Origin: Paenisporosarcina antarctica
Lineage (GTDB): Bacteria; Bacillota; Bacilli; Bacillales_A; Planococcaceae
Direction of reading: 5' to 3'
DNA length: 64,000 bases
Assembly: GCF_004367585.1 (NCBI RefSeq)
Contig: NZ_CP038015.1
Coordinates: forward strand, 3,292,001-3,356,000
Of this stretch, positions 20,962 through 39,464 are shown one piece after another. Under the pieces are notes generated by a model. It had not been told where the DNA came from. It did not search any database and was given only the letters and a program-made list of their open reading frames with translations. The translations under genes and the position numbers were made by a program. The first letter of the stretch is position 1. Each line of letters opens with the position of its first letter.

Positions 20962-22578
20962 TTATCTGGTTTCTTGAGGCACTTTCTCTTTCTCCTGGTG
21001 TTGTTGTTTCATCTCTTCATTTTTCTCTGCATAGACAGGGTTCGTATGTTCAGGGTTCTGTCCCATTTTTTCTGGACTTTTCTCATTTGATAACGATTTG
21101 TATAGAGCTATACTCATTAAAATCAAAATGAATGTAAACGGCAGTGCAGAGACTAAGGATGCTGTCTGCAAACCTTTTAAACCACTGCTGACGATTAGAA
21201 CCGCTGTGATTGATGCTATTAATACGCCCCAAATGACCTTCACTGAAGTTGAAGGATTCAAGTTGCCATCTGAAGACATCATTCCGAGTACGAATACTGC
21301 AGAGTCGGCCGATGTAACAAGAAAGATAACAATAAGTGCAATCATAATGACAGATAATAAAATATAGAGTGGGAATTCCTGTAAGAGTACGAATATGGCC
21401 GTTGTCACATCTTGAGAAACTGCCTGAGAAATGGCTGTTCCTGTGTACAAGTCCAAGTATAATCCTGTACCTCCGAAAATTGCCATCCAAGCAAAACCAA
21501 TGACTGGCGGAACAATCATGACTCCTAAGACAAATTCACGAATTGTTCTTCCTCTTGAAACACGAGCAACAAATGACCCAACAAATGGCGACCACGCAAT
21601 TACCCATGCCCAATAAAATACGGTCCAATCATTCACCCATGTATCTCCTGAATATGGGGTTAAGAAAAAGCTCATTTCAACAAAGTTCTGAAGGTAGTCC
21701 CCCAGCCCAACAACAAAGCTTTCCATTATAAAGATAGTTGGTCCTCTGAAAAGGAAGAAAATCATTAACACCGCTACTAGTGACATATTTAGAAGACTCA
21801 ATAGTTTAATACCTTTATTAATTCCAGTCGTCGATGAAATAAGATAAAGCACTAAGATAATTCCAACTATACCGATTTGTAGCCATGCACTATTTGGAAC
21901 TTGAAATACGTAGTTCATACCACCGCTTATTTGTAAGACACCCATACCAATTGAGGTAGCAACACCAGTTACTGTTGCTATAATGGCAAGAATGCTAATA
22001 AATAATTTTATACGACCTCTACCTCTTTTCGGAAGCACCTCAGAAATCGTTTCACTGATAAGCCCTTTTCTTTTATGACGGAATTGAAAGTATGCTAGAG
22101 CTAATCCAACAATCGCAAAAACAGACCACTGGTGAATTCCCCAGTTAAAAAATGAATAGCGCATCGCTAAACGTGCGGCTTCGGCAGTTTGAGGTTCTAC
22201 TCCTGCAAGTGGAGGAGTGACAAAATGAGTCAATGGTTCGGCTACACCCCAAAATACAATTCCAACACCAAAACCTGCGCTAAATAACATACTGATCCAT
22301 GTGAAAAGTGAAAACTCTGCTTTTTCATCATCTTTGCCAAGTTTGATATTTCCATATTTACTGAACGCAAGGAATAGGCAGAAAAAAACAAAACCTGCAA
22401 CACTAAGCAAGTAAAACCACCCAAAGCTTTTGCTAGTAAATGAGAAAACAGCTGAAGCATATTTCGCTAGCGTGTCAGGTGAAAATGCACCCCAAAGAGT
22501 GAATAGGGCAATAACAATAGCTGATACTTTAAACACTATATTATTATAAGATACGTGGTTTGGGTTTTTCTTCAACAT
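20962..22578 (-). CDS. BCCT-family compatible-solute transporter (probable ectoine uptake)
   Basis: A 538-aa betaine/choline/carnitine-type transporter with twelve hydrophobic helices. Family marks are FGVGIVFWGVAEPLTHF at about 99-115 and the helix-8 signature NDWTVFYWAWVIAWSPFVGS followed by RVSRGRTIREFVLGVMIVPP. The C-terminal tail after about 505 is highly charged (EEMKQQHQEKEKVPQ), as in osmosensing members. Family members carry glycine betaine, choline, carnitine or ectoines. The location at the end of an ectoine degradation cluster, same strand, favours ectoine/hydroxyectoine import (inference). It could also serve osmoprotection. Confidence 0.88.
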   Translation of the reverse strand: MLKKNPNHVSYNNIVFKVSAIVIALFTLWGAFSPDTLAKYASAVFSFTSKSFGWFYLLSVAGFVFFCLFLAFSKYGNIKLGKDDEKAEFSLFTWISMLFSAGFGVGIVFWGVAEPLTHFVTPPLAGVEPQTAEAARLAMRYSFFNWGIHQWSVFAIVGLALAYFQFRHKRKGLISETISEVLPKRGRGRIKLFISILAIIATVTGVATSIGMGVLQISGGMNYVFQVPNSAWLQIGIVGIILVLYLISSTTGINKGIKLLSLLNMSLVAVLMIFFLFRGPTIFIMESFVVGLGDYLQNFVEMSFFLTPYSGDTWVNDWTVFYWAWVIAWSPFVGSFVARVSRGRTIREFVLGVMIVPPVIGFAWMAIFGGTGLYLDLYTGTAISQAVSQDVTTAIFVLLQEFPLYILLSVIMIALIVIFLVTSADSAVFVLGMMSSDGNLNPSTSVKVIWGVLIASITAVLIVSSGLKGLQTASLVSALPFTFILILMSIALYKSLSNEKSPEKMGQNPEHTNPVYAEKNEEMKQQHQEKEKVPQETR

Positions 22579-22687
22579 ATTGAGATATCCCCTTCATCGC
22601 TTCTATTTTTACTTTATAAAAGAATTCTAGAACTTAGTGACCTACTATATAATGAATTTTGTTAACATAATGATTGACAAACATTTT

Positions 22688-24130
22688 TCAATAATCAGAT
22701 AGTTTAAAACAAACAACTTTCGGCTCTGTCATTTCCTGAACTGAGAATTTAATTCCCTCGCGTCCTAATCCCGATTTTTTCACTCCGCCAAATGGCATGG
22801 AATCTATTCGGTAGTCGCTGCTGTCATTAATCATAATTCCACCAACATCCATCTTAGCAATGGCTCTATGTGCTTTATCGATACTTTTCGTAAAAATCCC
22901 CGCCTGTAAGCCATAATTCACTTCATTCGAAAGTCTGATCGCTTCATCAAGATCAGGAACAGAATACAGAAGTACTACTGGACCAAAGATTTCATCTGTA
23001 GCGATTGTACAGTTTTTAGGTACATTAGTTAAAACAGTTGGCAAATAAAAGGCACCGTTTCGTTTTCCACCGGTAAGTAATAATGCACCTTTTTCAATTG
23101 CTTCATTTACTAAATTTTCAACACGAATTGCTTCTTTTTCAGTAATAAGTGGTCCCATATCAGTTATCTCTAATTGTTTATCACCAACACAATATTGGTT
23201 CGTGCGTTCGACAAATTTAGTTTGGAATGAATAAAGAATACTTTCTTGGATATAAATTCGTTGCACACTCAGGCAATTCTGACCTGCGGCATAGAATGCA
23301 CCTGAAACAGTTGATTCAACAGCATCATCAATATCACTATCTTCCAGTACGATAACTGGAGAATTCGAACCGAGCTCCATACTAATTTTTTTCAAACCCG
23401 CTTTTCTTGTGATTTTCTCACCAACTTCTACTCCTCCTGTAAAGCTAATCATACGTACCGCAGGATGTGTAACCAAAACATCACCAATTTCATTTCCGTA
23501 ACCAGTAATTACTGATAACACTTTTGGAGGTAAACCTGCATAAGCAAATGCTTCCGCAAGCAACAATGCGCTTAATGGCGTTACTGTTGCCGGCTTAACG
23601 ATAATTGCATTTCCAGATGCGATTGCCGGTCCTACTTTGTGTGCAACAAGGTTAAGTGGATCATTAAACGGTGTAATGGCACCAATAATTCCAATTGGAA
23701 AACGATAATAATATCCTACTCGATTCTCACTTCCTGGCATTTGATCAAAAGGAATTGTCTCACCGTGAATTCTTCTTGCTTCTTCAGCACTTATGCGCAA
23801 TGTCTGAACACATCTTTGCACTTCTTTCGATGCTTCACGAATTGTTTTACTACTTTCTGTCGCTATAGTTCGAGCGTACTTTTCTAAATTCTGCTCTATA
23901 TAATCTGCGGCAACATTGATCACTTTCATGCGTTCATGCACCGGCATAGAAGCAGCAATTTCAGCTCCGTCTTTCGCTTCCTCAATACAATTCACCATAT
24001 CCTTCGCTGATGCTGCAGGAACTGTATCGATGATGCTGTTATCTTGAGGATCACGAACCTCAATGATTCGATCACCATTCACCCATTTGCCTGCAAGGAA
24101 CATCTTTTGCCCTGTAAGTTGAGTTGTCAT
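22688..24130 (-). CDS. NAD(P)+ aldehyde dehydrogenase (DoeC-like, aspartate-semialdehyde oxidation)
   Basis: A 480-aa non-acylating aldehyde dehydrogenase. Features seen: cofactor motif GIIGAITPFNDPLNLVAHKV, glycine motif ISFTGGVEVGEK, catalytic Glu in MELGSNSPVIV, catalytic Cys in AAGQNCLSVQRIY, and EIFGPVV. I start at the ATG at 24130 with AAAGGCGG upstream. The stop of the homoserine-dehydrogenase-like gene is 20 bp upstream, same strand. In ectoine catabolism DoeC oxidises aspartate semialdehyde to aspartate; this enzyme fits that slot between the semialdehyde-forming enzyme and aspartate ammonia-lyase. Succinate-semialdehyde or another aldehyde cannot be excluded. Confidence 0.8.
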   Translation of the reverse strand: MTTQLTGQKMFLAGKWVNGDRIIEVRDPQDNSIIDTVPAASAKDMVNCIEEAKDGAEIAASMPVHERMKVINVAADYIEQNLEKYARTIATESSKTIREASKEVQRCVQTLRISAEEARRIHGETIPFDQMPGSENRVGYYYRFPIGIIGAITPFNDPLNLVAHKVGPAIASGNAIIVKPATVTPLSALLLAEAFAYAGLPPKVLSVITGYGNEIGDVLVTHPAVRMISFTGGVEVGEKITRKAGLKKISMELGSNSPVIVLEDSDIDDAVESTVSGAFYAAGQNCLSVQRIYIQESILYSFQTKFVERTNQYCVGDKQLEITDMGPLITEKEAIRVENLVNEAIEKGALLLTGGKRNGAFYLPTVLTNVPKNCTIATDEIFGPVVLLYSVPDLDEAIRLSNEVNYGLQAGIFTKSIDKAHRAIAKMDVGGIMINDSSDYRIDSMPFGGVKKSGLGREGIKFSVQEMTEPKVVCFKLSDY

Positions 24131-24150
24131 ACTATTACCGCCTTTCCTCA

Positions 24151-25206
24151 TTAAATTTTCACTAATTGTTTTTGACGATCAATAGTAATTAAATCTATTA
24201 AGAGGGAGAAGCCCGTTTCGACTTTCCCGGCACCCGCGCCGCTCAATGTCACTGCGCCTAAAAGATCACATTTATAGGTAATAGCGTTAGTAGCTCCGCT
24301 GATCGAGGCAAGCGAATCTGTGATATCTACTTTTTCTGGTGCAATTGATGCAATTACTTTGTTACCTTCTTTGCGTGCTTTAGCTAATAGTTTCCACCGT
24401 TTTCCTTCTGCTTTTGCTGTTTCAATATCTCTTAACGTAATTCCTGTGATTCCTTTGCACGATACTTCTTCCACTGTCAGAGGTGCTCTCATTACATAGT
24501 TTGATAAAATAACAATTTTGTATCTTGCATCATAGCCTTCTACATCACTGGTAGGGTCTGCTTCTGCATATCCTAGCTCCTGTGCCTCTTTTAAAGCTTC
24601 CTCGTAAGTTATACCTGCTATTTCCATTTGGGTTAAAATGTAGTTTGTCGTACCATTTAAAATACCGCGTATTTCAGTAATATCATTTCCAGCCAGTGTA
24701 GCGATTGGCATACGCAATGCTGGAGTTCCGCTCATTACAGTTCCCTCAAATCCCCAGTAAACGCCATGTTTGTTGGCAATTTCAGAAAGCTCTTTGTAAG
24801 CAAGAGCAACAGGACCTTTGTTCGTCATGACAACATTTTTCCCATTCTCAAACGCAGCTTTACAATGATTAATCGCTGGTTGACCTGTTTTTACGTCTGT
24901 GTACGAAACCTCAATAATCGTATCCGCATTTGTCTCACGAATTGTTTTTAAACTATCCCATCCCGTCACTAGCCCCTGAGTTGGTGGATAGTTTTCGAGG
25001 CTACCAGTTTCTCTTAACACTCGGAGAGCCGTATCAATATCAAGACCGTTTGGATGATAAATCGAGCCTTTTAATAAATCGGATATTGCCACAATATTAG
25101 CTTCAAAACCCTCATCTTGTCTTAGGGCTTCTTTTTTATCACGAATAATTTCTGCCAAACCTTGCCCCACTACACCAAATCCAATAAATGCTAATTTATG
25201 AGCCAT
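24151..25206 (-). CDS. Homoserine-dehydrogenase-family enzyme without ACT domain
   Basis: A 351-aa NAD(P) oxidoreductase interconverting homoserine and aspartate semialdehyde. It shows the nucleotide motif LAFIGFGVVGQGLAEII, then NVVMTNKGPVALAYKEL, GTVMSGTPALRMPIATLAG, ILNGTTNYILTQM and AEADPTSDVEGYDARYKIVI, which keeps the catalytic Asp and Lys of the family. The C-terminal regulatory ACT domain of biosynthetic enzymes is absent. It overlaps the M20 gene by 11 bp (AGAGGTG ribosome site), so it is part of the ectoine cluster. I infer a catabolic role, homoserine to aspartate semialdehyde, feeding the downstream aldehyde dehydrogenase. Confidence 0.85.
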   Translation of the reverse strand: MAHKLAFIGFGVVGQGLAEIIRDKKEALRQDEGFEANIVAISDLLKGSIYHPNGLDIDTALRVLRETGSLENYPPTQGLVTGWDSLKTIRETNADTIIEVSYTDVKTGQPAINHCKAAFENGKNVVMTNKGPVALAYKELSEIANKHGVYWGFEGTVMSGTPALRMPIATLAGNDITEIRGILNGTTNYILTQMEIAGITYEEALKEAQELGYAEADPTSDVEGYDARYKIVILSNYVMRAPLTVEEVSCKGITGITLRDIETAKAEGKRWKLLAKARKEGNKVIASIAPEKVDITDSLASISGATNAITYKCDLLGAVTLSGAGAGKVETGFSLLIDLITIDRQKQLVKI

Positions 25207-26443
25207 GTGATTGCACCTCTACCTTCTGATTAATTGGTGACCTAAGCTTACCTTTTAAAAATTTTATTGCTGTCTGTGCTAGTATTGCTGTCCCTATTGG
25301 CAAGCAGGATTCGTCAATATCAAAGATTGGCGTGTGCAAATCCCGCTGAACTCCGTCTTGCCGTGAACAGCCTAGAAAAAACATGGAACCTGGAATCTGT
25401 TCCGTTACATAGGCGAAATCTTCTCCTCCCATTCCAAAAGGACCCTTAGTTATTTGAATATCAGGGTATATCTCAAGCATCGTTTCAGTAATCCATTCGT
25501 TGACTAGGGGACTATTATATAAGGCTGGTTCACCTCTTTGTACATTCAAGAAATAGCCTCCGCCTAAGTGTTCAGCAATTGAAAACGCTTTCTTTAACTC
25601 TATTTCCAATAAATTACGTATTTCAGCTGAATAGCTTCTAATCGTACCTTCTATTAAAACCTCTGTCGGGATTATATTACTGGCTGTTCCTGCATGGATT
25701 TGACCTATACTTATAACTGCAGCATCTAAAGCAGAAACTCTACGAGCAACAATTCCGTGTAACGCTTGCAGAACAGGTCCTAGCATCCAGGTAGGGTCTG
25801 TTCCCAGTTCTGGATAAGCTCCGTGGCCACCTGTACCATATATTTTAGCTTCAAATACATCAACACTTGCCATGCTGTATCCATCGCTAATTTGTGCTTC
25901 ACCTACAGGTAGCCAAGGACACATATGAAGAGCGATTGCAGCCTCTACATTATCGTAAGCGCCCGCTTTCACCATATAAGGAGATCCAGAAAGTCCATTT
26001 TCGTCCGTACATTCTTCAGCAGGTTGAAATATAAACTTAACCGTCCCTGTTACTTCCCCCTTTTTAAAGAGATCTGAAAGTATGGTAGCCACACCCAGTA
26101 AAATAGCTGTATGTGCATCGTGTCCGCATGCATGCATAACACCATCATTTTTTGAGCAATAACTATTTGTACTTTCTTCTTGAATTGGAATAGCATCTAT
26201 GTCAGCACGAATCGCAAAAGTCGGACCATCACCTGAAGTTAATATGCCAATAACACTTGTTTCAACTCCTCTTCCAGTGTCTACTTTCATTCCGTCTATC
26301 ATTCTTAACGTTTCAGCAACAAATTTAGAGGTCCTGAACTCTTTAAAACTGAGTTCAGGAAATTGATGAAACGTGCGACGCCATTCAATTAGTTTAGTAA
26401 ACAAGCAGTTTACTTGATCAACTATTGGATGAGTATTTGACAT
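25196..26443 (-). CDS. M20 amidohydrolase (probable N-acetyl-diaminobutyrate deacetylase)
   Basis: A 415-aa M20D zinc amidohydrolase. It has the start RRTFHQFPELSFKEFRTSKF, the metal block GVMHACGHDAHTAILLGVA and PAEECTDENG (catalytic Glu), the dimerisation domain in the middle, and GMGGEDFAYVTEQIPGSMFF near the end. Relatives remove acyl groups from amino acids. DoeA opens ectoine to N-acetyl-2,4-diaminobutyrate, and a deacetylase is then needed; no AstE-like DoeB is present, so this enzyme is the obvious candidate. It lies between the PLP enzyme and the homoserine-dehydrogenase-like gene in one operon. Confidence 0.82.
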   Translation of the reverse strand: MSNTHPIVDQVNCLFTKLIEWRRTFHQFPELSFKEFRTSKFVAETLRMIDGMKVDTGRGVETSVIGILTSGDGPTFAIRADIDAIPIQEESTNSYCSKNDGVMHACGHDAHTAILLGVATILSDLFKKGEVTGTVKFIFQPAEECTDENGLSGSPYMVKAGAYDNVEAAIALHMCPWLPVGEAQISDGYSMASVDVFEAKIYGTGGHGAYPELGTDPTWMLGPVLQALHGIVARRVSALDAAVISIGQIHAGTASNIIPTEVLIEGTIRSYSAEIRNLLEIELKKAFSIAEHLGGGYFLNVQRGEPALYNSPLVNEWITETMLEIYPDIQITKGPFGMGGEDFAYVTEQIPGSMFFLGCSRQDGVQRDLHTPIFDIDESCLPIGTAILAQTAIKFLKGKLRSPINQKVEVQSHGS

Positions 26444-26484
26444 TTACCATTCGCCTCTGCTCCCTGTTAGAAAATTTATGATTA

Positions 26485-27684
26485 TTAAACTTTCAAAGCA
26501 CTTTCAACGTGATTAAACGCTTGTTCAAAGTCTGCAAGGATATCTTCAATATCTTCAATTCCACAAGATACGCGAATTAATCCTTCTGGTATTCCCATTG
26601 CTGCGCGTTCTTCAGGAGTGCATTCAACATGGCTTGTCGTACGGGCAGGCCCTACTGTTGTTTCAACTGAACCTAGGTTTGCTGCACGGTGTGCGTATTG
26701 CAATTTAGGAAGAAGATCTCTTACTGTATCAACTCCACCTTTTACTGCAAAGCTAAGCATGCCACCGAAATCTTTCATTTGTTTTTTCGCGATGTCGTGG
26801 TTTGGATGCGTTTCAAGCCCCGGGTAGAAAACATCTTCGACAATTTCTTTTGTTTGCAAGTATTTCGCAAGTTCCATTGCATTCTTACATTGTTCACGGA
26901 CACGAATGTGAAGAGTTTTCATTCCTCGTAAAGTCAAGTAAGCTGCCATTGGATCCATTGTTGCTCCATTGATTTCACGGTAGTGGTAAACTTGCTCAAC
27001 GAGTTGATGAGAACCCACTAACACTCCGCCAAGTGCATCCGCATGTCCACAAAGGAATTTTGTTGCACTATGGATAACCAAGTCAACGCCAAGTGCAAGC
27101 GGGTTTTGGTTGATCGGAGTTCCGAAAGTGTTATCAATGATGACAATAGCCCCCGCTGCCTGACCAGCTTTTGCCATACGTTCGATATCCGTAATTTTAA
27201 CTGTTGGATTTGTCGGTGTTTCCAAGTAGAGAATTTTACACCCTTTAGCAACTTCCGCTTCGATTGCTTCATGATTTCCTGTTTCAGCTAAAGCTACATC
27301 GATATTTAGACGCGGAAGGAACTCAGTAAAGATTTTGTTTGTGCCGCCGTATGTGTCTTTAACAGAAACAATGCGATCACCTGGCAATAAGAATGTAGCC
27401 AGAGTATTGCTGATTGCTGCCATCCCTGTAGAGAAACTTGTTGCCGCTTCTGCACCTTCTAGAACTTTCACTTTATCTTCAAATGCTTGGACAGTCGGGT
27501 TTGTGTTGCGTCCATAAATATGTCCCTTTTTCTTGCCAATTGCCACGTCATACCACTCATCCATATCGTCGTATGTGTAAGCTACGCTCAATACGACTGG
27601 TACTTGTGTGGCACCATGTACTAAATATTCTTTTTCTCCAGCCCATACTGCTTTTGTACCTATTTGAATGTCTTTGTGTGTCAT
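26485..27684 (-). CDS. Gamma-family (Cys/Met metabolism) PLP enzyme
   Basis: A 399-aa PLP enzyme of the cystathionine gamma-synthase/gamma-lyase family. The active-site lysine is in VIHSATKFLCGHADALGG; also seen are GRNTNPTVQAFEDKVKVLEG, SFSTGMAAISNTLATFLLPG, LYLETPTNPTVKITDI and the C-terminal LIRVSCGIEDIEDILADFEQ. I start at the ATG at 27684 (GAGGAG upstream). Such enzymes perform gamma-elimination or gamma-replacement. In this cluster it occupies the place where the DABA transaminase DoeD would be expected, and it may replace the gamma-amino group of diaminobutyrate (inference). A sulfur-amino-acid role is the alternative. Confidence 0.85.
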   Translation of the reverse strand: MTHKDIQIGTKAVWAGEKEYLVHGATQVPVVLSVAYTYDDMDEWYDVAIGKKKGHIYGRNTNPTVQAFEDKVKVLEGAEAATSFSTGMAAISNTLATFLLPGDRIVSVKDTYGGTNKIFTEFLPRLNIDVALAETGNHEAIEAEVAKGCKILYLETPTNPTVKITDIERMAKAGQAAGAIVIIDNTFGTPINQNPLALGVDLVIHSATKFLCGHADALGGVLVGSHQLVEQVYHYREINGATMDPMAAYLTLRGMKTLHIRVREQCKNAMELAKYLQTKEIVEDVFYPGLETHPNHDIAKKQMKDFGGMLSFAVKGGVDTVRDLLPKLQYAHRAANLGSVETTVGPARTTSHVECTPEERAAMGIPEGLIRVSCGIEDIEDILADFEQAFNHVESALKV

Positions 27685-27698
27685 ATGACCACTCCTCA

Positions 27699-28703
27699 TT
27701 AGTTTTTTAGTGCTACCATTTCATTTCCAATCTTTAATCCTATATTCCGTTTGACCATTTCAGTGTAAGCAAATAACGCAATCGCTGTATCCTGAACACC
27801 CGTTCCGGTTAAATCACAAACTGTAATTTGTTCATCATTGTCACGACCGTCCAACTCTTTTGAAGTTAATTGACCGAGTTCGATAATGAACGAATCGTCT
27901 GTGAGGGCACCACTTTCTAATGCATGATGCAATTCTCCAAGTTTGGAACATTGTGCTTTTGTATCACACACAAGCTTATCCGCCCGAGCTAATACTTCAT
28001 CTTCCAACTCTTGTTTATGTTCGGCATCAGAGCCCATTGCTGTAATATGAATCCCAGGATGCAGCCATTCAGCTTTAATAACTGGCTCTTTTGCCGGCGT
28101 TGTCGTGACGACTAAGTCACTGCAGCGAACAACCTGTTCCGCGTTTTCCGCCACTTGGACGTCTACCCCTAACTCAGCAGCCATTTCTTCTGCGTACTTT
28201 TCAGCACGGTCAGTTGAACGTGCATAAACAATTAGCTTTTTAAAATCCCGTACTAGAGCTATTGCTCTCACCTGGAACCTCGCTTGACTTCCCGCTCCTA
28301 TTACTCCTACAGTTTCAATGTTTTCCCGAGAAAGGTATTTTGCAGCAACCGCTCCCGCTGCAGCAGTTCTAATCTCAGTTAAATAACCATTATCCAAAAG
28401 AAGCGCATGTGGAATCCCCGTTTGTGTACTAATCAACATCATTAGTCCATTCCCACTTGGAAGACCCTGCTTATGATTATTAAAAAATCCAGAAGAAACC
28501 TTTATGGCAAACATCTCTTTACCTTTTATATACGCAGTTTTCACATCTACTTCGCCATTTTGATCGTGAATATCAATACGCATTATCGGTGGCATTTCCA
28601 CTTCATTGTTTGCTAATTTTGTAAATCCATCTTCAATAATGTCAATTGCTTCAAGATTTAATTCCACATATTGTTTAAGCTCCTGCTCCGTAAATATAAG
28701 CAT
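27699..28703 (-). CDS. eutC: Ectoine utilization protein EutC (ornithine cyclodeaminase family)
   Basis: A 334-aa ornithine cyclodeaminase/mu-crystallin family protein matching the ectoine-specific EutC subgroup. Features: MPPIMRIDIHDQNGEVDVKT, AFIKVS-type lysine region FAIKVSSGFFNN, LLDNGYLTEIRTAAAGAVAA, and the Rossmann motif VGVIGAGSQARFQVRAIALV. EutC is implicated with EutB in turning hydroxyectoine into a form that can enter ectoine degradation. It starts 26 bp after doeA and ends 14 bp before the PLP enzyme. This is not the ethanolamine ammonia-lyase subunit of the same name, which is at 57298. Confidence 0.85.
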   Translation of the reverse strand: MLIFTEQELKQYVELNLEAIDIIEDGFTKLANNEVEMPPIMRIDIHDQNGEVDVKTAYIKGKEMFAIKVSSGFFNNHKQGLPSGNGLMMLISTQTGIPHALLLDNGYLTEIRTAAAGAVAAKYLSRENIETVGVIGAGSQARFQVRAIALVRDFKKLIVYARSTDRAEKYAEEMAAELGVDVQVAENAEQVVRCSDLVVTTTPAKEPVIKAEWLHPGIHITAMGSDAEHKQELEDEVLARADKLVCDTKAQCSKLGELHHALESGALTDDSFIIELGQLTSKELDGRDNDEQITVCDLTGTGVQDTAIALFAYTEMVKRNIGLKIGNEMVALKN

Positions 28704-28729
28704 AATCCTCTCATCTCCTTTTATGGAGT

Positions 28730-29917
28730 CTAGTTATTCATTAATATTCCGTCTTTGATAAACAACTCTCTAGGGAAATTCGCGAAAGTTTCACATCCAG
28801 TTTCTGTTACTCTAAAGGATTCACTCGCTTCAAATCCGTAGTGATCTAACCAAATACCAGGAATTAGATGGAATGTCATATTCGGCTGAAGAATTGTTTT
28901 GTCTCCTTTACGGATACTTGCTGTATGCTCACCCCAGTCAGGAGGATAATTCAAACCCATTGCATAACCAAGACGGGATTCTTTTATAATGCCACTTCTC
29001 TCTATTGATTTTCTCCAAGTTTCTTCAATTTCTTCACACGCGATACCTGGCTTAATCATGTCAAGACAACTGTTTAACCCTTCGATAACAACATCTGAAA
29101 GCGCTTTAATTTTATCGGAAGGTCGCCCTATATTAACTGTTCTTGCAAGTGGTGAGTGGTAGCGTTTATAACAGCCCGCTAATTCTAAAATAACTGTATC
29201 ACCTTGTTTATAGCGTTCATCTGTCCATGTTAAATGAGGAGTTGAGGTTTTCTCTCCAGATGGGAGCAGTGGCATAATTGCCGGATAATCACCGCCGAAC
29301 TCTGCTGTTCCAGTGACTTGTGTGTGTAATATTTTCGCTGCAACATCACATTCACGAACGCCTACATTTATCAAATTAATTCCATCCATCATAGCTTTTT
29401 CTACGATTAACGCAGCGCGCTTCATATACTCGATTTCTTGATTAGACTTCACAATACGAACCCAGTTTACTAGATGAGATGCATCCTTGAACGTAGCATT
29501 TGGTAACCCTTTTTTTAGCTGTTCGTAACATTTTGCTGTGAAATAATAATTTTCCATTTCAACACCGACTGAACGGGTTTCTAGACCAATTTGTTTTAAA
29601 ATATCAGCTACAAAGTCCATGGGGTGCTTTGTATTAGATTGGACATAATCCTCTGGATAAGGAATGATGTTTTCATGGTATAGCCATGTTGTTAATTTTG
29701 CTCCGTTTGCATCCTGAGTTCTTCCAATCCAAATCGGTTGGTCTTCGTCATTTATTATTACTAACATTTGATGTACGTAGAAGGACCAACCATCGTAACC
29801 GGATAAGTAGTTCATATTAGCTGGATCTGTAATAAGTAATACTTCAACCCCTTGTGCTGCCATTCGATCTTTTGTTTTGCGAATTCTCTCTTTATACTCT
29901 GTTGTTCCAAATGACAT
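28730..29917 (-). CDS. doeA: Ectoine hydrolase DoeA/EutD (M24, creatinase-like)
   Basis: A 395-aa pita-bread-fold hydrolase that opens the ectoine ring to N-acetyl-2,4-diaminobutyrate. The creatinase-type N-domain has ITDPANMNYLSGYDGWSFYV; the catalytic domain starts near 165 (IEYMKRAALIVEKAMMDGIN). The region corresponding to the aspartate metal ligands of aminopeptidases reads ELAGCYKRYHSPLARTV, so it is non-metal creatinase-like. I start at the ATG at 29917, because AGGAGGG lies 9 nt upstream and abuts the alternative ATG at 29926. First gene of the cluster section doeA-eutC-PLP-M20-HSD-ALDH. A dyad motif lies about 100 bp upstream. Confidence 0.88.
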   Translation of the reverse strand: MSFGTTEYKERIRKTKDRMAAQGVEVLLITDPANMNYLSGYDGWSFYVHQMLVIINDEDQPIWIGRTQDANGAKLTTWLYHENIIPYPEDYVQSNTKHPMDFVADILKQIGLETRSVGVEMENYYFTAKCYEQLKKGLPNATFKDASHLVNWVRIVKSNQEIEYMKRAALIVEKAMMDGINLINVGVRECDVAAKILHTQVTGTAEFGGDYPAIMPLLPSGEKTSTPHLTWTDERYKQGDTVILELAGCYKRYHSPLARTVNIGRPSDKIKALSDVVIEGLNSCLDMIKPGIACEEIEETWRKSIERSGIIKESRLGYAMGLNYPPDWGEHTASIRKGDKTILQPNMTFHLIPGIWLDHYGFEASESFRVTETGCETFANFPRELFIKDGILMNN

Positions 29918-30018
29918 GGGAACCATCCCTCCTAATATATCAATGCTTATTAAATTTTCGGAATAATTAGTCCGTGAGTTTAGTATAGTATAAGAGCTCG
30001 GAATCTATCATCCGTAAT

Positions 30019-30034
30019 ATTGTATGAATATTCA
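30019..30034. promoter_or_regulatory. Candidate operator upstream of doeA
   Basis: ATTGTATGAATATTCA contains the palindrome TGAATATTCA. The same 16-mer with one change occurs inverted at 34962-34977, upstream of the other promoter of the ectoine cluster. It is about 100 bp before the doeA start. Confidence 0.5.
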
Positions 30035-30484
30035 ATAAATTTATAGTCAAATTAGCTATTAGTTTTGAGATGCTTTTTAATTCATGAAGAGTTTTTCAAT
30101 TCCTCTAGAATCAGCGAGCCGTCAGAATTATATTCTATATTTAGCAAAGTCCTTAATATTGTGTATAGTCGTATACAATGAATTCGAAATGAAACTGTCT
30201 AGAATATTTTTCAAGACCACATTTTATAAGTATCAATATATTTCATTGAAAACCAATAACATCAACGTAGCTGCTGAAAAAGTATTTTCAGCACGTTGCC
30301 TTCCATAATATCCAATAATTACAACTGATCCATCGCTCAACATTAAATCCATATCTTTTTGACGATGCGAGAAGCGTAATAGTGTTGCAAAACCCTCTTT
30401 TCAGGAGAAAACACTTAAATAAAGTAAAAAACGATTTGAAAACCTTAGTCGTTCAGAATGTGAAAAATGTTTTTACTTTTTAGA

Positions 30485-30539
30485 CAGTAAAATAAGACCG
30501 ATATACAAACCCTCTAACTTAATGGATTTTATACCGGTC
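30485..30539 (-). terminator. Terminator of the ectoine-cluster regulator
   Basis: On the minus strand GACCGGTATA pairs with TATATCGGTC (one G-U pair), followed by TTATTTTAC. It lies 24 bp after the PucR-type stop. Confidence 0.7.
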
Positions 30540-30562
30540 CTATTATTTTAATTATATCTTGC

Positions 30563-32266
30563 TTATGTTATTTTTTCAGAGACACCCATTTTCCAAGTTT
30601 TAATACTCAAATCCAATAAAAATAAATCATCAGGATCAATAAGCGATAGGCCTGTCAATGACTCAATTTTCCTAAGTCGATATAACAAGGACTGTCTGTG
30701 TAAATTTAATGACCTTGCCGTTTGACTAACATTTCCATGATACTGATTATATGCACTAAATGTACTAATTAAATCCATATTACTCTGGCCGTCATATTGA
30801 ACGAGTGGTTCTAATGTCGACATAATGACTTCTTTCATCTCATTATTTTGAGCAAGATTTAAGAGCACACGGTCAACCCGTGTGTTTTCATACATCATAC
30901 GATGACCTATTCCTTTTTTACGTCTTCCAATATTTAATGCAACGTTTGCATTTTGATAGCTTTCCGCAAATCCCTCAAAATCTTCGCAATAGCACCCTAC
31001 ACCCCAAGATATAATAACCTCAGGGAGTAAATTTCCTAAACGACGTTCTACTAAATCTAGGAAGTTCGTTGCGCCTTCATTTTCTGTTTTGGAAGGAACT
31101 TCAAGAAAAATAAGAAGCTGTTCTCCTTGATACGTTATCATTACTTCTCGTTTAATGGATTGTGATGCATAAAAAATCTCTTCTTCAATATAATGAATCA
31201 TGCTTTCAAGCCAATGGACAAATGAATCATAATCTTTTTTTCTTTTCTCAAATAGCAACTGTAGGTTCTCAGGAAACCCTACAATAGAAATATATGGGCG
31301 TTTTAAATTATATCCGAGCAATTTTGCCCTTGAATTTGCCTGATCATAGGAAGCGAACTCTCCTTTTGCTAACTCTTGAACAAAATCACTTCGCAAACTT
31401 ATTTTCGTCGCCTCAATGGCATTTTTCCTTGAAAGCCATAGAGCTATTGTTGTCGCTGCATGCTCCAATACATTCACGTGATACTGTGTTAAATAGGAGT
31501 CCACTGATGTATTAGGAGGTAACATCACAAAAATATAGCCTTGTGCGTCCCCTAAAACTTGCAGCACAGGGAGTTGAAGTATACACTTACCATCTATTTC
31601 AACCATTTGGAACTTCTGTATCATTGGATCATGACTTACCAAGGTTGTCTCCTTTCTTAAAGGAAGGATTCCCTTCAGAACATAGGTCTCCCACTTTTTA
31701 ATAAAGGCTTGAGTATGACCATTTTTTTCTTGAATAGATCCTAGTCGGTCAGTGATAATAATCGTACAATTAATATGCCTTTGAATAAATTTCGAGATAT
31801 GATTAAGATCTTTATCTTGTAGAATTAATTTTAACAACTCTTGCTGTACTTCCTCTGATTTTTGCCGTTCTTTGTACTGAATATCGTTAATATCTTTCAT
31901 AACCTCTTCAACGATACTGGAAAATCGGATTTCCCATGGAATTTCAATAATCTTGAAATTATGCTTCTCAGCCAATTCAATGACCTCTCTAGGAATATCA
32001 AATATATGTCTTCCCATCGCGATCATAAGTGCTGTCGCTTCAGAGTCTATAATATCTTGTACAAACGTTACAAATGTTTCAACGTCGTTGTTGCATCCAA
32101 TAGCAGTTGTTAATACAACCTCATTTTTACGGACGAAATTTTCAACAGGCATCTCAATTACTGAAATCCATTGAATATTTCGCTCTTTTTCAACATTGTT
32201 ACCTGTTATAATTCTTGCGTTTTTAAGATTTTCGTAATGTAGAATATCCTCTAATGTTAATATCAT
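30563..32266 (-). CDS. PucR-family transcriptional regulator of the ectoine cluster
   Basis: A 567-aa regulator. The PucR sensor domain covers about 1-125 (LTLEDILHYENLKNARIITG; ALMIAMGRHIFDIPREVIEL). A GGDEF-like middle domain lies at about 300-430. The C-terminal HTH reads GNVSQTARSLNLHRQSLLYR. The ATG at 32266 has GGAGTGGGG upstream. It sits between aspA and doeA on the same strand. Proteobacterial ectoine clusters use the MocR-type EnuR; a PucR-type protein here would be a different control solution (inference). Only about 30% alike by eye to the regulator at 7158, so it is not a recent duplicate. Confidence 0.87.
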   Translation of the reverse strand: MILTLEDILHYENLKNARIITGNNVEKERNIQWISVIEMPVENFVRKNEVVLTTAIGCNNDVETFVTFVQDIIDSEATALMIAMGRHIFDIPREVIELAEKHNFKIIEIPWEIRFSSIVEEVMKDINDIQYKERQKSEEVQQELLKLILQDKDLNHISKFIQRHINCTIIITDRLGSIQEKNGHTQAFIKKWETYVLKGILPLRKETTLVSHDPMIQKFQMVEIDGKCILQLPVLQVLGDAQGYIFVMLPPNTSVDSYLTQYHVNVLEHAATTIALWLSRKNAIEATKISLRSDFVQELAKGEFASYDQANSRAKLLGYNLKRPYISIVGFPENLQLLFEKRKKDYDSFVHWLESMIHYIEEEIFYASQSIKREVMITYQGEQLLIFLEVPSKTENEGATNFLDLVERRLGNLLPEVIISWGVGCYCEDFEGFAESYQNANVALNIGRRKKGIGHRMMYENTRVDRVLLNLAQNNEMKEVIMSTLEPLVQYDGQSNMDLISTFSAYNQYHGNVSQTARSLNLHRQSLLYRLRKIESLTGLSLIDPDDLFLLDLSIKTWKMGVSEKIT

Positions 32267-32375
32267 GATTCCCCACTCCTACCACTTAAAGATTAACACG
32301 GTAAAAATTCTTATTAAAAACTTTATCGAGGTAGCGTTTAACTACTACCAATCAATAGTTATATTATTACAATGA

Positions 32376-33842
32376 CTAGGAGTTGATCAAATGTAAAGTG
32401 TTTATTTTCCCACTATCAAAAAGAGCAGCACCAGAAATACCTGGCTCTGTCATTTCATATGGGTTTAAAATAAGATCAAGTTCTTCTTCTGTTAACACGT
32501 CGTAAAGCAAGCATAATTCACGAACAGATTTTCCATTTATGATTGCTTCTCTTGCAATCCTTGCTGCCACTTCATAGCCGATATGAGGATTAACTGCTGT
32601 AATAATTCCTACGCTTTTTTCCACATAACTCTTTAAATGTTCTTCATTTGCTTCTATACCCACAAGGCAGTACTCTGTAAAAACACTGAATGCATTATTC
32701 ATGATGCTAATAGACTGTAACAAATTAAACACAAGTACAGGTTCCATCACATTTAACTCAAGCTGACCAGCTTCAGAGGCCAAACAAATTGTATGATCGT
32801 TACCTATTACTTGAAATGCAACCTGATTAATCATCTCGGGCATGACTGGGTTTACTTTTCCTGGCATAATCGACGAACCAGGCTGCCTAGCTGGCAAAAA
32901 GATCTCACCAAGTCCTGCTCTTGGACCTGATGCCATTAAACGAATATCGTTTGCTATTTTGGACATGTTCATCATGCATACCTTTAGTGCAGCTGAAACT
33001 TCAGTATATGCATCCGTATTTTGTGTCGCATCCACTAAATGTTCTGCTCCCGTTAGCGGCAGACCACTAATATCAGACAAGTGATTGATTACCTTTTTGA
33101 TATAATGTGGATCGGCATTTAGTCCGGTTCCAACAGCTGTTGCTCCCATATTCACTTCATATAAATGTTGACGTGATTGCTTAATACGCTTAATATCACG
33201 TCCTACTACACGGCTATATGCTTCAAATTCTTGCCCAAGACGAATAGGGACCGCGTCTTGAAGATGTGTTCTCCCCATCTTTATCACATGATCAAATTGT
33301 TGTGCCTTTTTCTTAAACACAGCAAGCATCTGCTGCATTGTATAAAGTAGTTTTTCTAGTAGGTTAAGAGTTGCAATATGAATTGCAGTTGGAAAAACAT
33401 CGTTAGTTGATTGTGACATATTTACATGATTGTTTGGACTCAGTAGCTTATAGTCCCCTTTCTCTTTACCAAGTAATTCAAGAGCACGATTAGCGATAAC
33501 CTCATTCACATTCATATTCATTGAAGTACCAGCACCACCTTGGATGGGATCTACGATAAAATACTCGTGCAATTTTCCTCCAATGATTTCGTCTGCTGCT
33601 TTTACAATTGGATGACATAATCCTCCATTTAAAAGTTTCACATCCATATTTGCTAATGCTGCTGCTTTTTTCACGATCACTAAAGCTCTAATTAGTTCCT
33701 CATGAATCCGATAGCCTGTGATCGGGAAATTTTCAACAGCACGTATTGTTTGGATGCCATAATATGCTTGCATTGGCACTTCCTTCGACCCTAAAAAATC
33801 ACTCTCAATTCTCACATTAAACATACCAACGCCAATTGACAT
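32376..33842 (-). CDS. aspA: Aspartate ammonia-lyase
   Basis: A 488-aa enzyme of the fumarase/aspartase superfamily, converting aspartate to fumarate and ammonia. Motifs: IESDFLGSKEVPMQAYYGIQ, GGAGTSMNMNVNEVIANRAL, MSQSTNDVFPTA, GRTHLQDAVPIRLGQEF, and the mobile-loop signature PGSSIMPGKVNPVMPEMINQ. The SS-loop and MNMNVNEV favour aspartase over fumarase. The ATG at 33842 has AAGGGTGAG upstream and follows eutB by 4 bp. In this cluster it would drain aspartate from ectoine into the TCA cycle. Confidence 0.88.
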   Translation of the reverse strand: MSIGVGMFNVRIESDFLGSKEVPMQAYYGIQTIRAVENFPITGYRIHEELIRALVIVKKAAALANMDVKLLNGGLCHPIVKAADEIIGGKLHEYFIVDPIQGGAGTSMNMNVNEVIANRALELLGKEKGDYKLLSPNNHVNMSQSTNDVFPTAIHIATLNLLEKLLYTMQQMLAVFKKKAQQFDHVIKMGRTHLQDAVPIRLGQEFEAYSRVVGRDIKRIKQSRQHLYEVNMGATAVGTGLNADPHYIKKVINHLSDISGLPLTGAEHLVDATQNTDAYTEVSAALKVCMMNMSKIANDIRLMASGPRAGLGEIFLPARQPGSSIMPGKVNPVMPEMINQVAFQVIGNDHTICLASEAGQLELNVMEPVLVFNLLQSISIMNNAFSVFTEYCLVGIEANEEHLKSYVEKSVGIITAVNPHIGYEVAARIAREAIINGKSVRELCLLYDVLTEEELDLILNPYEMTEPGISGAALFDSGKINTLHLINS

Positions 33843-33846
33843 AATC

Positions 33847-34860
33847 TCACCCTTTCTTTTCCAGAGTATACTTTTGAATTAGCTGTAGCAGAGTAGAAAT
33901 GTCAACGTTGTTTCCACTTATAATAACAGCGACATCCCCCTCTTGATGAGGAATTTTATTACCTAAAACTGCCGCAATTCCTGTTGCTGCTGCACCTTCC
34001 ATAACAATTCGATGTTTGTCGATCATATAGGCCATGCTATAAGCAATCTCTTCTTCAGGAATAAGCACGACATCATCCATATATTGCTGCACCATTTTAA
34101 ACGTGTATTGATTATCAAGACCAATTCCACCTAATAAACTATCTGCTAATGTCTCGCTTTCTTCAAGCTCTACTGGTTTACCAACGTTCAAACTTTCATA
34201 CATGACCGCTGATTGTTCCATTGAAACACCAGTTACTCTGATGGCACGATCATTAGATTTTAATGCCAGGCAAATTCCGGAGAGTAGTCCACCTCCTGAA
34301 AGAGGAACAATCACGTCTGTTAGATTAGGAAGATCCTCTAATAATTCCAAGCCAATTGTTCCTTGTCCGGCAATAACATGAGGATCATCAAATGGCTGAA
34401 TAACAGTTAATCCCTTCTCTCTTTCCAACTCAAAACAATACTCTCCTGCGGCATCTTGGCTATCACCAACTATCACAATTTGAGCTCCCAGCCTTTTTAA
34501 TGAATCTACTTTTGCTTTTGGTACTCGATTTGAAATGCATACAACAGCATCAATTCCAAGTTTTTTCGCTACAAAAGCTACAGCCATACCATGGTTTCCA
34601 GTTGAATACGTTACAACCCCACGCCTTTTTTCTTCTTCACTCAGGCTAAGGATTTTATTGGCTGCTCCTCTTATTTTGAATGCTCCAACTTCATGAACAT
34701 TTTCAAGCTTTAAATAAACAGGACGACCTATTTTTTCCGATAGAATATTAGACTGAATTAATGGTGTTTTATTTACAATAGCAGAAATTCGTTTTCTCGC
34801 TTCCCAAACATCACCAATTTCAATGTCTTTTCGTTCTTTTGATTGTTTTGTATTAGTCAT
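33847..34860 (-). CDS. eutB: Hydroxyectoine utilization dehydratase EutB (threonine-dehydratase-like)
   Basis: A 337-aa fold-type II PLP enzyme. The lysine is in LENVHEVGAFKIRGAANKI; others are VTYSTGNHGMAVAFVAKKLG and the glycine loop VPLSGGGLLSGICLAL. The EutB subgroup mark ADSLLGGIGLDNQYTFKMVQ is clear and separates it from ordinary threonine dehydratase. Known role: with EutC, conversion of hydroxyectoine toward ectoine. Start ATG at 34860 with GGGAGG upstream. First gene of the unit eutB-aspA-regulator. It is unrelated to ethanolamine ammonia-lyase EutB at 58291. Confidence 0.85.
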   Translation of the reverse strand: MTNTKQSKERKDIEIGDVWEARKRISAIVNKTPLIQSNILSEKIGRPVYLKLENVHEVGAFKIRGAANKILSLSEEEKRRGVVTYSTGNHGMAVAFVAKKLGIDAVVCISNRVPKAKVDSLKRLGAQIVIVGDSQDAAGEYCFELEREKGLTVIQPFDDPHVIAGQGTIGLELLEDLPNLTDVIVPLSGGGLLSGICLALKSNDRAIRVTGVSMEQSAVMYESLNVGKPVELEESETLADSLLGGIGLDNQYTFKMVQQYMDDVVLIPEEEIAYSMAYMIDKHRIVMEGAAATGIAAVLGNKIPHQEGDVAVIISGNNVDISTLLQLIQKYTLEKKG

Positions 34861-36006: not shown

Positions 36007-36609
36007 TTATAACTGTTGATACCATTTCGTTGCAGCTTCTACTTCACTCATTATTAATTGATGCCCTTGGTTTTCCCAATGGATATTGACTGTTGCATGC
36101 GCAGCTTCTAGCAATTGTTTAAGATCCACTGACTCTTGTTGCGGACAAATGGGATCGTTTTTCCCAGCTGTAATAAATACGTGTTTTCCTGATAAATCAG
36201 GAAGCGCTATTCCTCGTCTAGGCACCATTGGATGATGTAAAATAGCTCCTCTAATCGCATTGTCAAAATGGAATAGCAGGCTTGCTGCAATATTTGCACC
36301 ATTTGAATAGCCAATAGCAAGAATGTTTTCGCGGTCAAATTCATACTTTACGGCCGCTTCATCTAAAAAAGCATTCAATTCATTTGTGCGGAAAATTAAA
36401 TCCTCTTCATCAAAAATACCTTCTGCTAATCTTCTAAAAAATCGTGGCATTCCATTTTCTAACACATTGCCTCGAACACTTAATACGGATGCCTCTTTAT
36501 CGACAATGTCAGCTAGAGGTAATAAATCTTGCTCATTCCCACCTGTTCCATGTAGTAATAATAGGACTGGTTTTGTTGAATCTGTACCTTGTTTAAAAAT
36601 ATGTTTCAT
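36007..36609 (-). CDS. mhqD: MhqD-like alpha/beta hydrolase (carboxylesterase)
   Basis: A 200-aa esterase of the phospholipase/carboxylesterase family. Oxyanion region LLLHGTGGNEQDLLPLA, nucleophile elbow IGYSNGANIAAS (Ser about 106), catalytic Asp in TAGKNDPICPQQ and His in WENQGHQL. In Bacillus the homologue MhqD acts with the dioxygenase MhqO in resistance to methylhydroquinone and catechol. The ATG at 36609 has GAAAGGAGAG upstream. Last gene of the group mhqO-FMN reductase-flavin reductase-hydrolase, all leftward. Confidence 0.82.
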   Translation of the reverse strand: MKHIFKQGTDSTKPVLLLLHGTGGNEQDLLPLADIVDKEASVLSVRGNVLENGMPRFFRRLAEGIFDEEDLIFRTNELNAFLDEAAVKYEFDRENILAIGYSNGANIAASLLFHFDNAIRGAILHHPMVPRRGIALPDLSGKHVFITAGKNDPICPQQESVDLKQLLEAAHATVNIHWENQGHQLIMSEVEAATKWYQQL

Positions 36610-36634
36610 TTATTATTTCTCTCCTTTCAAGCGA

Positions 36635-37249
36635 TCACTTAGGTCTATCCATTGAAAAAATGTCACCTATCATTGCATAATCTGTGCCAGCTAAGCGACT
36701 GACTGCATTTAATGCTCTTGGATCAATTCGGCCATCTTTGTAAATCTCTTTATCGATATGAAATTGAAGAATTTCGCCTATGAATAAATCACAGCTCGGC
36801 TCGACTTTCCCTCCTAAAGGGATTGCTTGAACGAGCTTACATTCCATACGGATTTTAGACTCTTTAATTCCCGGTACCGACACATGCGTACTTTGAATAG
36901 CTGTCAGCTTTGCCAATTCAATTTCACTTTCATCAGACGGTAAGCTCGCTGATGTTTCATTAATCTTTGCGACATTTTCATCATCTACTATATGCACAAC
37001 AAATTCATGATTATTATTTATATTGTTAGCAGTATCTTTCATTCGCCCTTTAGGTCGCTGTACCGTTATTGAAATCATTGGAGGATTTGATGAAACAATA
37101 TTAAAGTAACTAAACGGGGCACCATTTAAGACACCATCGGCTGATTGCGTCGTGACGAATGCGATGGGTCTTGGAATGATAGAACCTATCATTAATTTAT
37201 AATTATCCCGTTCATTATTTTGCTTTGGATCAATTGAAATCAATTTCAT
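36635..37249 (-). CDS. Flavin reductase-like FMN-binding protein
   Basis: A 204-aa split-barrel flavoprotein (flavin_Reduct domain). It shows YKLMIGSIIPRPIAFVTTQS, GAPFSYFNIVSSNPPMISIT and KDTANNINNNHEFVVHIVDD; the family binds FMN and often reduces flavin or acts as a small oxidoreductase. The ATG at 37249 has AGAGGAAGGAACTG upstream. It follows the FMN reductase by about 95 bp and precedes the hydrolase by 25 bp. Likely a reductase for quinones or flavin in the electrophile response; the exact substrate is unknown. Confidence 0.82.
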   Translation of the reverse strand: MKLISIDPKQNNERDNYKLMIGSIIPRPIAFVTTQSADGVLNGAPFSYFNIVSSNPPMISITVQRPKGRMKDTANNINNNHEFVVHIVDDENVAKINETSASLPSDESEIELAKLTAIQSTHVSVPGIKESKIRMECKLVQAIPLGGKVEPSCDLFIGEILQFHIDKEIYKDGRIDPRALNAVSRLAGTDYAMIGDIFSMDRPK

Positions 37250-37343
37250 CAGTTCCTTCCTCTATTAGGCAAGTAGCGAATTCACGGTTCTTTTAAGTTT
37301 AAGCTAGCAACATTACCTAACTAGGTTCAATTTCGAAAAAAAT

Positions 37344-37883: not shown

Positions 37884-37958
37884 ATTATTTCCTCCTTTTT
37901 CTGGTGTTTTATTGTCTAATCCAAAAACTTTTTTTAATAAACTCATCTTATTCCCTCA

Positions 37959-38942: not shown

Positions 38943-38976
38943 TAATTTTCCTCCTTTAATTTATCCTCAATGATAA

Positions 38977-38994
38977 TATCTCGAATTAAAGACA
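38977..38994. promoter_or_regulatory. MhqR-type operator upstream of mhqO
   Basis: TATCTCGAATTAAAGACA matches the Bacillus MhqR operator TATCTCGAATTCGAGATA (recalled from the literature) at 15 of 18 positions. It lies 35 bp before the mhqO start. Confidence 0.7.
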
Positions 38995-39009
38995 TTATCT
39001 AAAAAAAAA

Positions 39010-39444: not shown

Positions 39445-39464
39445 TCGTTTCCCTTCTTCCAATT

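Follow-up and report, generated by a model that had tools for sequence, protein, structure and literature searches.

A putative homoserine bypass for ectoine degradation in a gene cluster of Paenisporosarcina antarctica and other Bacillota

The DNA considered here is a stretch of 64,000 nucleotides (the window) of the Paenisporosarcina antarctica genome (NZ_CP038015.1, positions 3,292,001 to 3,356,000), which contains a cluster of ten genes (20962-34860), all on the minus strand, resembling genes for the degradation of ectoine. An earlier note, made from the sequence alone, had listed DoeA, EutB, EutC, an M20 deacetylase, an aldehyde dehydrogenase (ALDH) and AspA without an aminotransferase, together with a gamma-family pyridoxal 5'-phosphate (PLP) enzyme and a homoserine dehydrogenase (HSD) lacking the ACT domain, and had suggested that L-2,4-diaminobutyrate (DABA) is degraded through homoserine. 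The gene content was confirmed, each gene having family support. In the order of transcription, the cluster comprises:

33847-34860, minus strand: eutB-like PLP dehydratase, hydroxyectoine branch (NF005680, 441 bits, cut-off 413; TIGR02991, 387 bits, cut-off 413)
32376-33842, minus strand: aspA, aspartate ammonia-lyase, aspartate to fumarate (TIGR00839, 767 bits, cut-off 681)
30563-32266, minus strand: PucR-type transcriptional regulator (PF07905, PF17853, PF13556)
28730-29926, minus strand: doeA-like ectoine hydrolase of the M24 fold (top family TIGR02993, ectoine hydrolase, 517 bits, yet below its cut-off of 613; solved structure 6twk, 'Ectoine hydrolase DoeA', matched at E 3e-119)
27699-28703, minus strand: eutC-like member of the ornithine-cyclodeaminase family, hydroxyectoine branch (NF006141, 500 bits, cut-off 408; TIGR02992, 437 bits, cut-off 471.65)
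26485-27699, minus strand: gamma-family PLP enzyme, which would act as an L-2,4-diaminobutyrate gamma-lyase with homoserine and ammonia as products (NF006097, 754 bits, curated cut-off 600; PF01053, 428 bits)
25196-26443, minus strand: M20 amidohydrolase, proposed N-acetyl-DABA deacetylase replacing DoeB (TIGR01891, 367 bits, cut-off 154; DoeB2 model, 227 bits, cut-off 550)
24151-25206, minus strand: HSD lacking the ACT domain, proposed to oxidize homoserine to aspartate semialdehyde (NF004912, 451 bits, curated cut-off 373)
22688-24151, minus strand: ALDH, proposed aspartate semialdehyde to aspartate (PF00171)
20962-22578, minus strand: BCCT transporter, likely for ectoine uptake, beyond the coordinates covered by the earlier note (TIGR00842, 501 bits, cut-off 408)

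Because the EutC-PLP, M20-HSD and HSD-ALDH pairs overlap by 1 to 11 bases, and the DoeA-EutC and PLP-M20 gaps measure 26 and 41 bases, the genes from doeA through the ALDH gene probably form a single transcript. A promoter and terminator scan of the cluster gave values close to those of shuffles (49 versus 46.8 and 11 versus 10.4, respectively). The earlier note had placed the upper end of the PLP gene at 27684; this is an inner ATG, and the gene extends to 27699. The M20 protein has no TIGR02994 (DoeB) match at E ≤ 0.001, and we infer that a different M20 enzyme functionally replaces DoeB or DoeB2. A search for ectoine synthase gave no match in this genome, nor in any control genome, so that absence is not established.

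By its PF01053 match the PLP protein belongs to the Cys/Met-metabolism enzymes, and among these to the subfamily NF006097/PRK08249 (cystathionine gamma-synthase family protein); PF00202 (class III aminotransferase) is absent among its Pfam matches at E ≤ 0.001. Five further full-length gamma-family paralogues are found in the genome; by best or over-cut-off model, two are O-acetylhomoserine sulfhydrylases, one is a cystathionine gamma-lyase and one a methionine gamma-lyase, and the remaining one has no model match at E ≤ 1e-120. Across 127 cluster PLP sequences, among them one from Klebsiella described below, 25 positions are invariant (≥97%) and differ in six outside sequences, namely the five paralogues and a canavanine-lyase candidate. 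No other gene of the cluster is conserved as well as the PLP gene: in nine Planococcus-type loci its identity to that of the window is 92-96%, versus 66-70% for PucR. The HSD (NF004912/PRK06270) has no ACT domain match and is the only one of three HSDs in the genome to match this model at E ≤ 1e-90; one of the other two has a C-terminal ACT_4 match just below the gathering score (25.1 of 27). In a tree of 28 cluster HSDs, out of 129 collected, these two other HSDs, which form the root and have long branches, stand apart from the cluster HSDs, and this is the sole thing that the tree shows.

The distribution of these genes was derived from a search for DoeA (TIGR02993, E ≤ 1e-90), which found it in 46 of 261 genomes of the order and in 36 of 398 genomes of the class, seven of the latter being already in the order set. 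The DoeA neighbourhoods (9 to 20 kb) were typed by tblastn with identity floors of 58% (PLP enzyme), 55% (aminotransferase), 50% (HSD and ALDH), 45% (EutB and EutC) and 43% (M20), all DoeA loci of one genome being pooled. Among the 75 DoeA genomes, 52 have the PLP and HSD genes, 12 have a class III aminotransferase without PLP or HSD, two have both types, eight have PLP alone, and one has none. The 46 order genomes comprise 31 with PLP and HSD, 12 with the aminotransferase only, two with both types and one with PLP only, and the 29 further class genomes comprise 21 with PLP and HSD, seven with PLP only and one with neither. The PLP gene is missing from 12 order genomes, and in every one of these the class III aminotransferase is present (one was examined and gave PF00202 at 324 bits); in ten of them it lies inside the cluster and adjoins the BCCT gene. 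The earlier note had raised the question whether DoeD-lacking ectoine clusters of other Firmicutes always carry the PLP-HSD pair. They nearly always do: a cluster aminotransferase is lacking in 61 DoeA genomes, of which 60 carry PLP and 52 carry both, and the 12 aminotransferase-only genomes have neither.

The genes around the exchanged ones behave differently. Every one of the 14 aminotransferase genomes keeps M20 and ALDH next to DoeA, and 54 of the 62 PLP genomes retain M20. In the two genomes with both types (G237 and G238), the PLP-HSD locus has neither M20 nor ALDH; both genes are found at the aminotransferase locus, which is separate. In two aminotransferase-only genomes (G158 and G163), DoeA, EutC, M20 and ALDH are consecutive and the PLP and HSD genes are gone, and DoeA sits in a PLP-type clade whose layout, with opposite eutB and Ehu-like genes, these two genomes share. 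Of the 85 rows of the DoeA tree, five with neither label were left out of the switch counts; the tree needs two switches between PLP and aminotransferase, and its starred branches force two. For two rows (L166 and L167) the aminotransferase label was assigned manually, the gene being on the next fetched stretch. The PLP-HSD pair and the aminotransferase thus look interchangeable, most simply for the conversion of DABA to aspartate semialdehyde.

EutB and EutC travel together, with both present in 36, neither in 28, and one or the other in one each of the 66 PLP-type DoeA rows, a set that counts several DoeA copies from one cluster and also the Klebsiella row. They are found with both cluster types and so probably function separately from the PLP-HSD step. 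Hydroxyectoine is probably also degraded, through EutB and EutC. The published roles of these two are predictions, biochemically untested at the time of a 2018 review (PMC5924519). A role of the PLP enzyme as partner of EutB and EutC was rejected, both being absent in 28 of the 66 PLP-type rows and present in three of the 12 aminotransferase-only genomes.

The linkage was also assessed from the PLP side. At E ≤ 1e-130, NF006097 is found at 35 loci in 34 of the 261 order genomes, and DoeA adjoins it in the window; of the 34 other order loci fetched, 33 also have DoeA adjoining. This linkage exceeds chance. In whole genomes of the order, NF006097 and NF004912 each occur in 34, with both in 33, PLP only in one (G016) and HSD only in one (G246), a count inflated by kinship among the genomes. 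In a named collection, 209 PLP relatives were found and the best 80 kept; the PLP gene was the query, so that only the neighbour counts (matches of at least 40% identity) are informative, and some of the 80 loci belong to genomes also in the order set. The neighbours are DoeA (79), HSD (70), M20 (70), ALDH (68), EutC (50) and EutB (49), with a BCCT gene adjoining at 25 and AspA, rare in such clusters, at four; the cluster aminotransferase is found at none of the 80. The locus missing from the DoeA count (L075, the same locus as L045) has, to judge from the filters, a short DoeA match only.

HSD is in turn tied to ALDH. On the DoeA tree, with a gene taken as present at any listed identity when at least half of the query is covered, there are seven independent pairs, of which typically six change the same way, none the opposite way, and one shows no difference (median p 0.03, range 0.016-0.22). 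HSD without the PLP gene occurs in none of 80 DoeA rows.

Three loci differ from the usual composition. The locus L045/L075 (genome G112) is a second cluster copy with EutB, PucR, EutC, PLP, BCCT and the short DoeA match, and has no M20, HSD or ALDH. In G246 (L224:6639-14795), HSD adjoins an ALDH that is split between two frames; a B3/4-like gene and, by reading of the translation, a dapA-like gene lie nearby, and there is no DoeA or PLP match. This is perhaps a Gram-positive module for homoserine or canavanine that has no ectoine genes. Priestia megaterium ATCC 14581 has the cluster on a plasmid of 74.8 kb; there (L162:4516-10215) pdxS, a gene of PLP cofactor synthesis, lies between eutB and the doeA-like gene, as if to provide the cluster's PLP enzymes with their cofactor.

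No aminotransferase gene, DoeD/Atf included, lies inside the cluster of the window, and nine class III aminotransferase matches lie elsewhere in the genome. In eight of these that were scanned, the top families are ornithine, acetylornithine, HemL and generic, with no EctB or diaminobutyrate transaminase model at E ≤ 1e-80 among the families listed. The nearest relative of the cluster aminotransferases (L159, 58-62% identity) is about 30 kb from the cluster; as a DoeD ortholog it was rejected, because it falls outside the cluster-aminotransferase clade (support 88/99) and belongs to a different operon. That operon (L180:6621-14805) contains two class III aminotransferases and an ALDH-like gene and, by reading of the translations, a thiolase-like gene, two CoA-transferase-like genes and a hydrolase. 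The absence of doeD beside doeA is no proof by itself, because a Sinorhizobium meliloti pSymB likewise has none annotated within 7 kb of doeA. A S. meliloti plasmid (L227:3832-9420) has annotated ehuB, ehuA, ehuC and ehuD followed by an M24 gene (DoeA-like, 58% identity to Klebsiella DoeA) and an M20 gene. The M20 type of hydrolase thus occurs in an ectoine setting in Alphaproteobacteria as well.

The cluster is proposed to break ectoine down to aspartate by way of homoserine, a reading to which a probability of about 0.68 is assigned. The genes and their families, the exchange with the class III aminotransferase, and the PLP-HSD and HSD-ALDH ties were computed; each substrate and product named in what follows is a prediction. 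DoeA would open the ectoine ring to give N-acetyl-DABA, from which the M20 hydrolase would remove acetate. The PLP enzyme would then release the gamma-amino group of DABA as ammonia and add water, giving homoserine, which would be oxidized by HSD to aspartate semialdehyde and by ALDH to aspartate, and AspA would convert the latter to fumarate. The PLP enzyme and HSD would take two steps for the one of the DoeD/Atf transaminase, and no 2-oxoglutarate would be needed. Homoserine is the best-supported candidate intermediate, because the two enzymes would together equal one transaminase step from DABA to aspartate semialdehyde and the second of them is a homoserine dehydrogenase.

Canavanine degradation offers a parallel. 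HSD, aspartate-semialdehyde dehydrogenase and aspartate ammonia-lyase activities were reportedly induced together with canavanine gamma-lyase in work by Hauth et al. in 2022. An operon of Mesorhizobium amorphae consists of B3/4, an ABC transporter, a gamma-family PLP enzyme, HSD, ALDH, dapA and aspA, and looks like a pathway from canavanine to homoserine; the identity of its PLP enzyme as a canavanine gamma-lyase rests on this operon. Canavanine gamma-lyase yields homoserine and hydroxyguanidine, and a B3/4 gene precedes its operon (PMC10018355). HSD, ALDH, dapA and aspA, with a homoserine kinase, are present on two R. leguminosarum plasmids, and HSD and ALDH, with the kinase, on R. johnstonii pRL8. 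The two rhizobial HSDs scanned are NF004912 members (474 and 475 bits), and the identities between window and Mesorhizobium are 46% for HSD and 51% for ALDH. The suggestion of a homoserine bypass in the earlier note is supported by the exchange with the aminotransferase, the joint change of HSD and ALDH, and this rhizobial operon with homologous HSD, ALDH and AspA, DABA and homoserine being putative. The reading of the PLP-HSD pair as a canavanine operon fused to ectoine genes was considered and rejected, the Mesorhizobium PLP enzyme being of another subfamily (35% identity to that of the window; 289 of 600 bits for NF006097).

A tie to ectoine comes from plasmids of Klebsiella. One such locus (L161) has DoeA (758 bits, cut-off 613), DoeB (540, cut-off 403) and the regulator EhuR (568, cut-off 480) over their cut-offs, EhuABCD as annotated, and EutB- and EutC-like genes below cut-off. 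An NF006097 enzyme (653 bits, 59% identity to that of the window) comes directly after doeB. This PLP enzyme occurs in 28 plasmid records, each of which matches the doeA-doeB-PLP stretch at full length; the records are at least 99% alike and therefore count as one event. A search of E. coli genomes for the stretch, at megablast sensitivity, gave no match. Of the 62 PLP genomes, 16 have an EhuB-like gene (at least 38% identity to that of Klebsiella) at the locus. Three plasmid loci from Klebsiella and Pluralibacter (L161, L178 and L179) carry an ectoine uptake and breakdown cluster, whole or partial, with IncFIB in all three records and insertion sequences close on either side in two of them; human samples are given as the source for several of the 28 records.

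Several results weigh against the homoserine route. Ammonia is an unusual leaving group in this family of PLP enzymes, and the oxidation of homoserine is thermodynamically uphill. DoeA and the M20 protein score below the equivalog cut-offs for ectoine enzymes, and EutC and EutB each fall below one of two. HSD is absent at the locus in eight of the 62 PLP genomes, some clusters consist of DoeA and PLP alone, and neither HSD nor ALDH stands beside the Klebsiella PLP gene. Enterobacteria lacking the cluster HSD could use their own, and the same absence also fits formation of 2-oxobutyrate, considered below. The exchange between PLP and aminotransferase amounts to just two independent events, too few for significance, and in one of the two (G158 and G163) the aminotransferase is about 11.5 kb downstream of DoeA, past an Ehu-like transporter, a match resembling PucR and two further genes on the opposite strand. 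The aminotransferase L159 in its separate operon could act on DABA. Finally, the PLP protein has a weak PF00155 (aminotransferase class I/II) match, 24.5 bits versus a gathering score of 19.7.

This last match, and the published label 'atf' given by homology and position to the gene at this place (PMC13188858), would agree with an aminotransferase (Atf). That identity is highly improbable, since the PF01053 and NF006097 scores are those of a Cys/Met-metabolism enzyme, and since a plain change of aminotransferase would not explain why HSD is gone too in the 12 genomes where a class III aminotransferase substitutes; misannotation of an aminotransferase was accordingly rejected. Very unlikely as well is degradation of some other compound, e.g. 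canavanine or an unknown cyclic amidine. The sub-cut-off scores of DoeA and M20 would allow it, and HSD, ALDH and AspA are reminiscent of the rhizobial operon, but the same PLP family adjoins certified DoeA, DoeB and EhuR with annotated EhuABCD in Klebsiella, EhuB-like genes accompany some PLP genomes as noted, and the canavanine gamma-lyase candidate differs in subfamily.

Two other possibilities concern the chemistry of the PLP enzyme itself. It could be a true gamma-lyase that converts DABA to 2-oxobutyrate with release of two ammonia, a reaction like that of methionine gamma-lyase on methionine; HSD would then serve something else. Its top-scoring solved structures are methionine gamma-lyases, and the loci without HSD, on Klebsiella plasmids and in the eight PLP genomes, would be accommodated. 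Nevertheless, this is unlikely: 2-oxobutyrate requires neither HSD nor ALDH, yet HSD is present in 33 of the 34 genomes with the PLP family and is absent where the aminotransferase stands instead. The enzyme could alternatively act on N-gamma-acetyl-DABA, whose alpha-amino group is free, releasing acetamide and forming homoserine with no need of deacetylation. Acetamide is a poor leaving group, M20 is retained in most PLP genomes, and the Klebsiella PLP gene comes after DoeB, so that this is a slightly more doubtful proposal than 2-oxobutyrate formation. In its favour, the PLP gene directly follows DoeA or EutC, ahead of M20, in most loci, and M20 is missing in eight of 62 PLP genomes versus none of 14 aminotransferase genomes. 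Halomonas elongata DoeA in E. coli, moreover, yielded both the N-alpha and the N-gamma isomers (PMC3187862).

For the homoserine route from free DABA, a broader claim is held with slightly less confidence than the route itself, and is still favoured: a new activity, L-2,4-diaminobutyrate gamma-lyase (homoserine and ammonia), would define a second bacterial ectoine route, exchanged for the transaminase route in Bacillota and recurring after certified doeA-doeB on enterobacterial plasmids.

Outside the cluster, a row of genes at 36007-39462 of the window is, by reading of the translations, carboxylesterase-like, flavin reductase-like, NADPH-dependent FMN reductase-like, ring-cleaving dioxygenase-like and MarR-like; we take it to resemble a quinone-stress (mhq) operon.

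Ectoine is a widespread solute in salty habitats, and a route of this kind would change gene-list surveys of its degradation. We take Sinobaca to be a Gram-positive genus. It is cited as an ectoine consumer in a study of Aquibacillus-group genomes, in which doeA was found in all, doeB in two strains, and ectoine was judged mainly an osmolyte (PMC10203224). Yet Aquibacillus salsiterrae 3ASR75-54 (L147) has DoeA, PLP, M20, HSD and ALDH together. DoeA homologues in Firmicutes without other ectoine-degradation genes had been noted, and alternative pathways supposed possible (Schwibbert et al. 2011, PMC3187862). If correct, the homoserine route returns reducing power rather than using up 2-oxoglutarate, and a PLP enzyme expelling ammonia from a gamma carbon would be of interest to enzymologists.

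The earlier note regarded the route as not described. This holds for the homoserine route within the literature searched, no publication on it or on a DABA gamma-lyase being found by title or abstract (subscription papers and preprints lay outside the search), and does not hold for the gene cluster. A Bacillales cluster 'pucR-eutBCD-atf' with 'abgB-thrA-adh' was published in AEM in April 2026 (PMC13188858), with the statement that ectoine breakdown in Gram-positive bacteria was undescribed before and with several cluster genes left without a role; the homoserine reading would give these a coherent role and testable chemistry. With the cluster type already in print, the swap test across DoeA genomes is the new contribution.

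Judged from the text of that article, its gene names and order, eutD-eutC-atf-abgB-thrA-adh, equal DoeA-EutC-PLP-M20-HSD-ALDH of the window. The differences are that the PLP gene is called atf, that the three later genes have general annotations, the thr product being said to reduce aspartate semialdehyde to homoserine, and that the assignments and the whole are called tentative; the homoserine route does not appear in the parts of the article covered. The canavanine route is similar in that a gamma-family PLP enzyme makes homoserine and the candidate operon has homologous HSD and ALDH with an aspartate ammonia-lyase, but the PLP subfamilies differ (35% identity), and the leaving group is hydroxyguanidine there and, as proposed, ammonia here. 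With the Doe/Eut systems (doeABCD of Halomonas elongata; eut of Ruegeria and Sinorhizobium), the window shares a homologous enzyme for ring opening, EutB and EutC, and, in the proposed route, deacetylase and ALDH steps with aspartate as the end point. In contrast to them, it has a gamma-family PLP enzyme and HSD for the DoeD transaminase, M20 for DoeB, and PucR for EnuR or DoeX.

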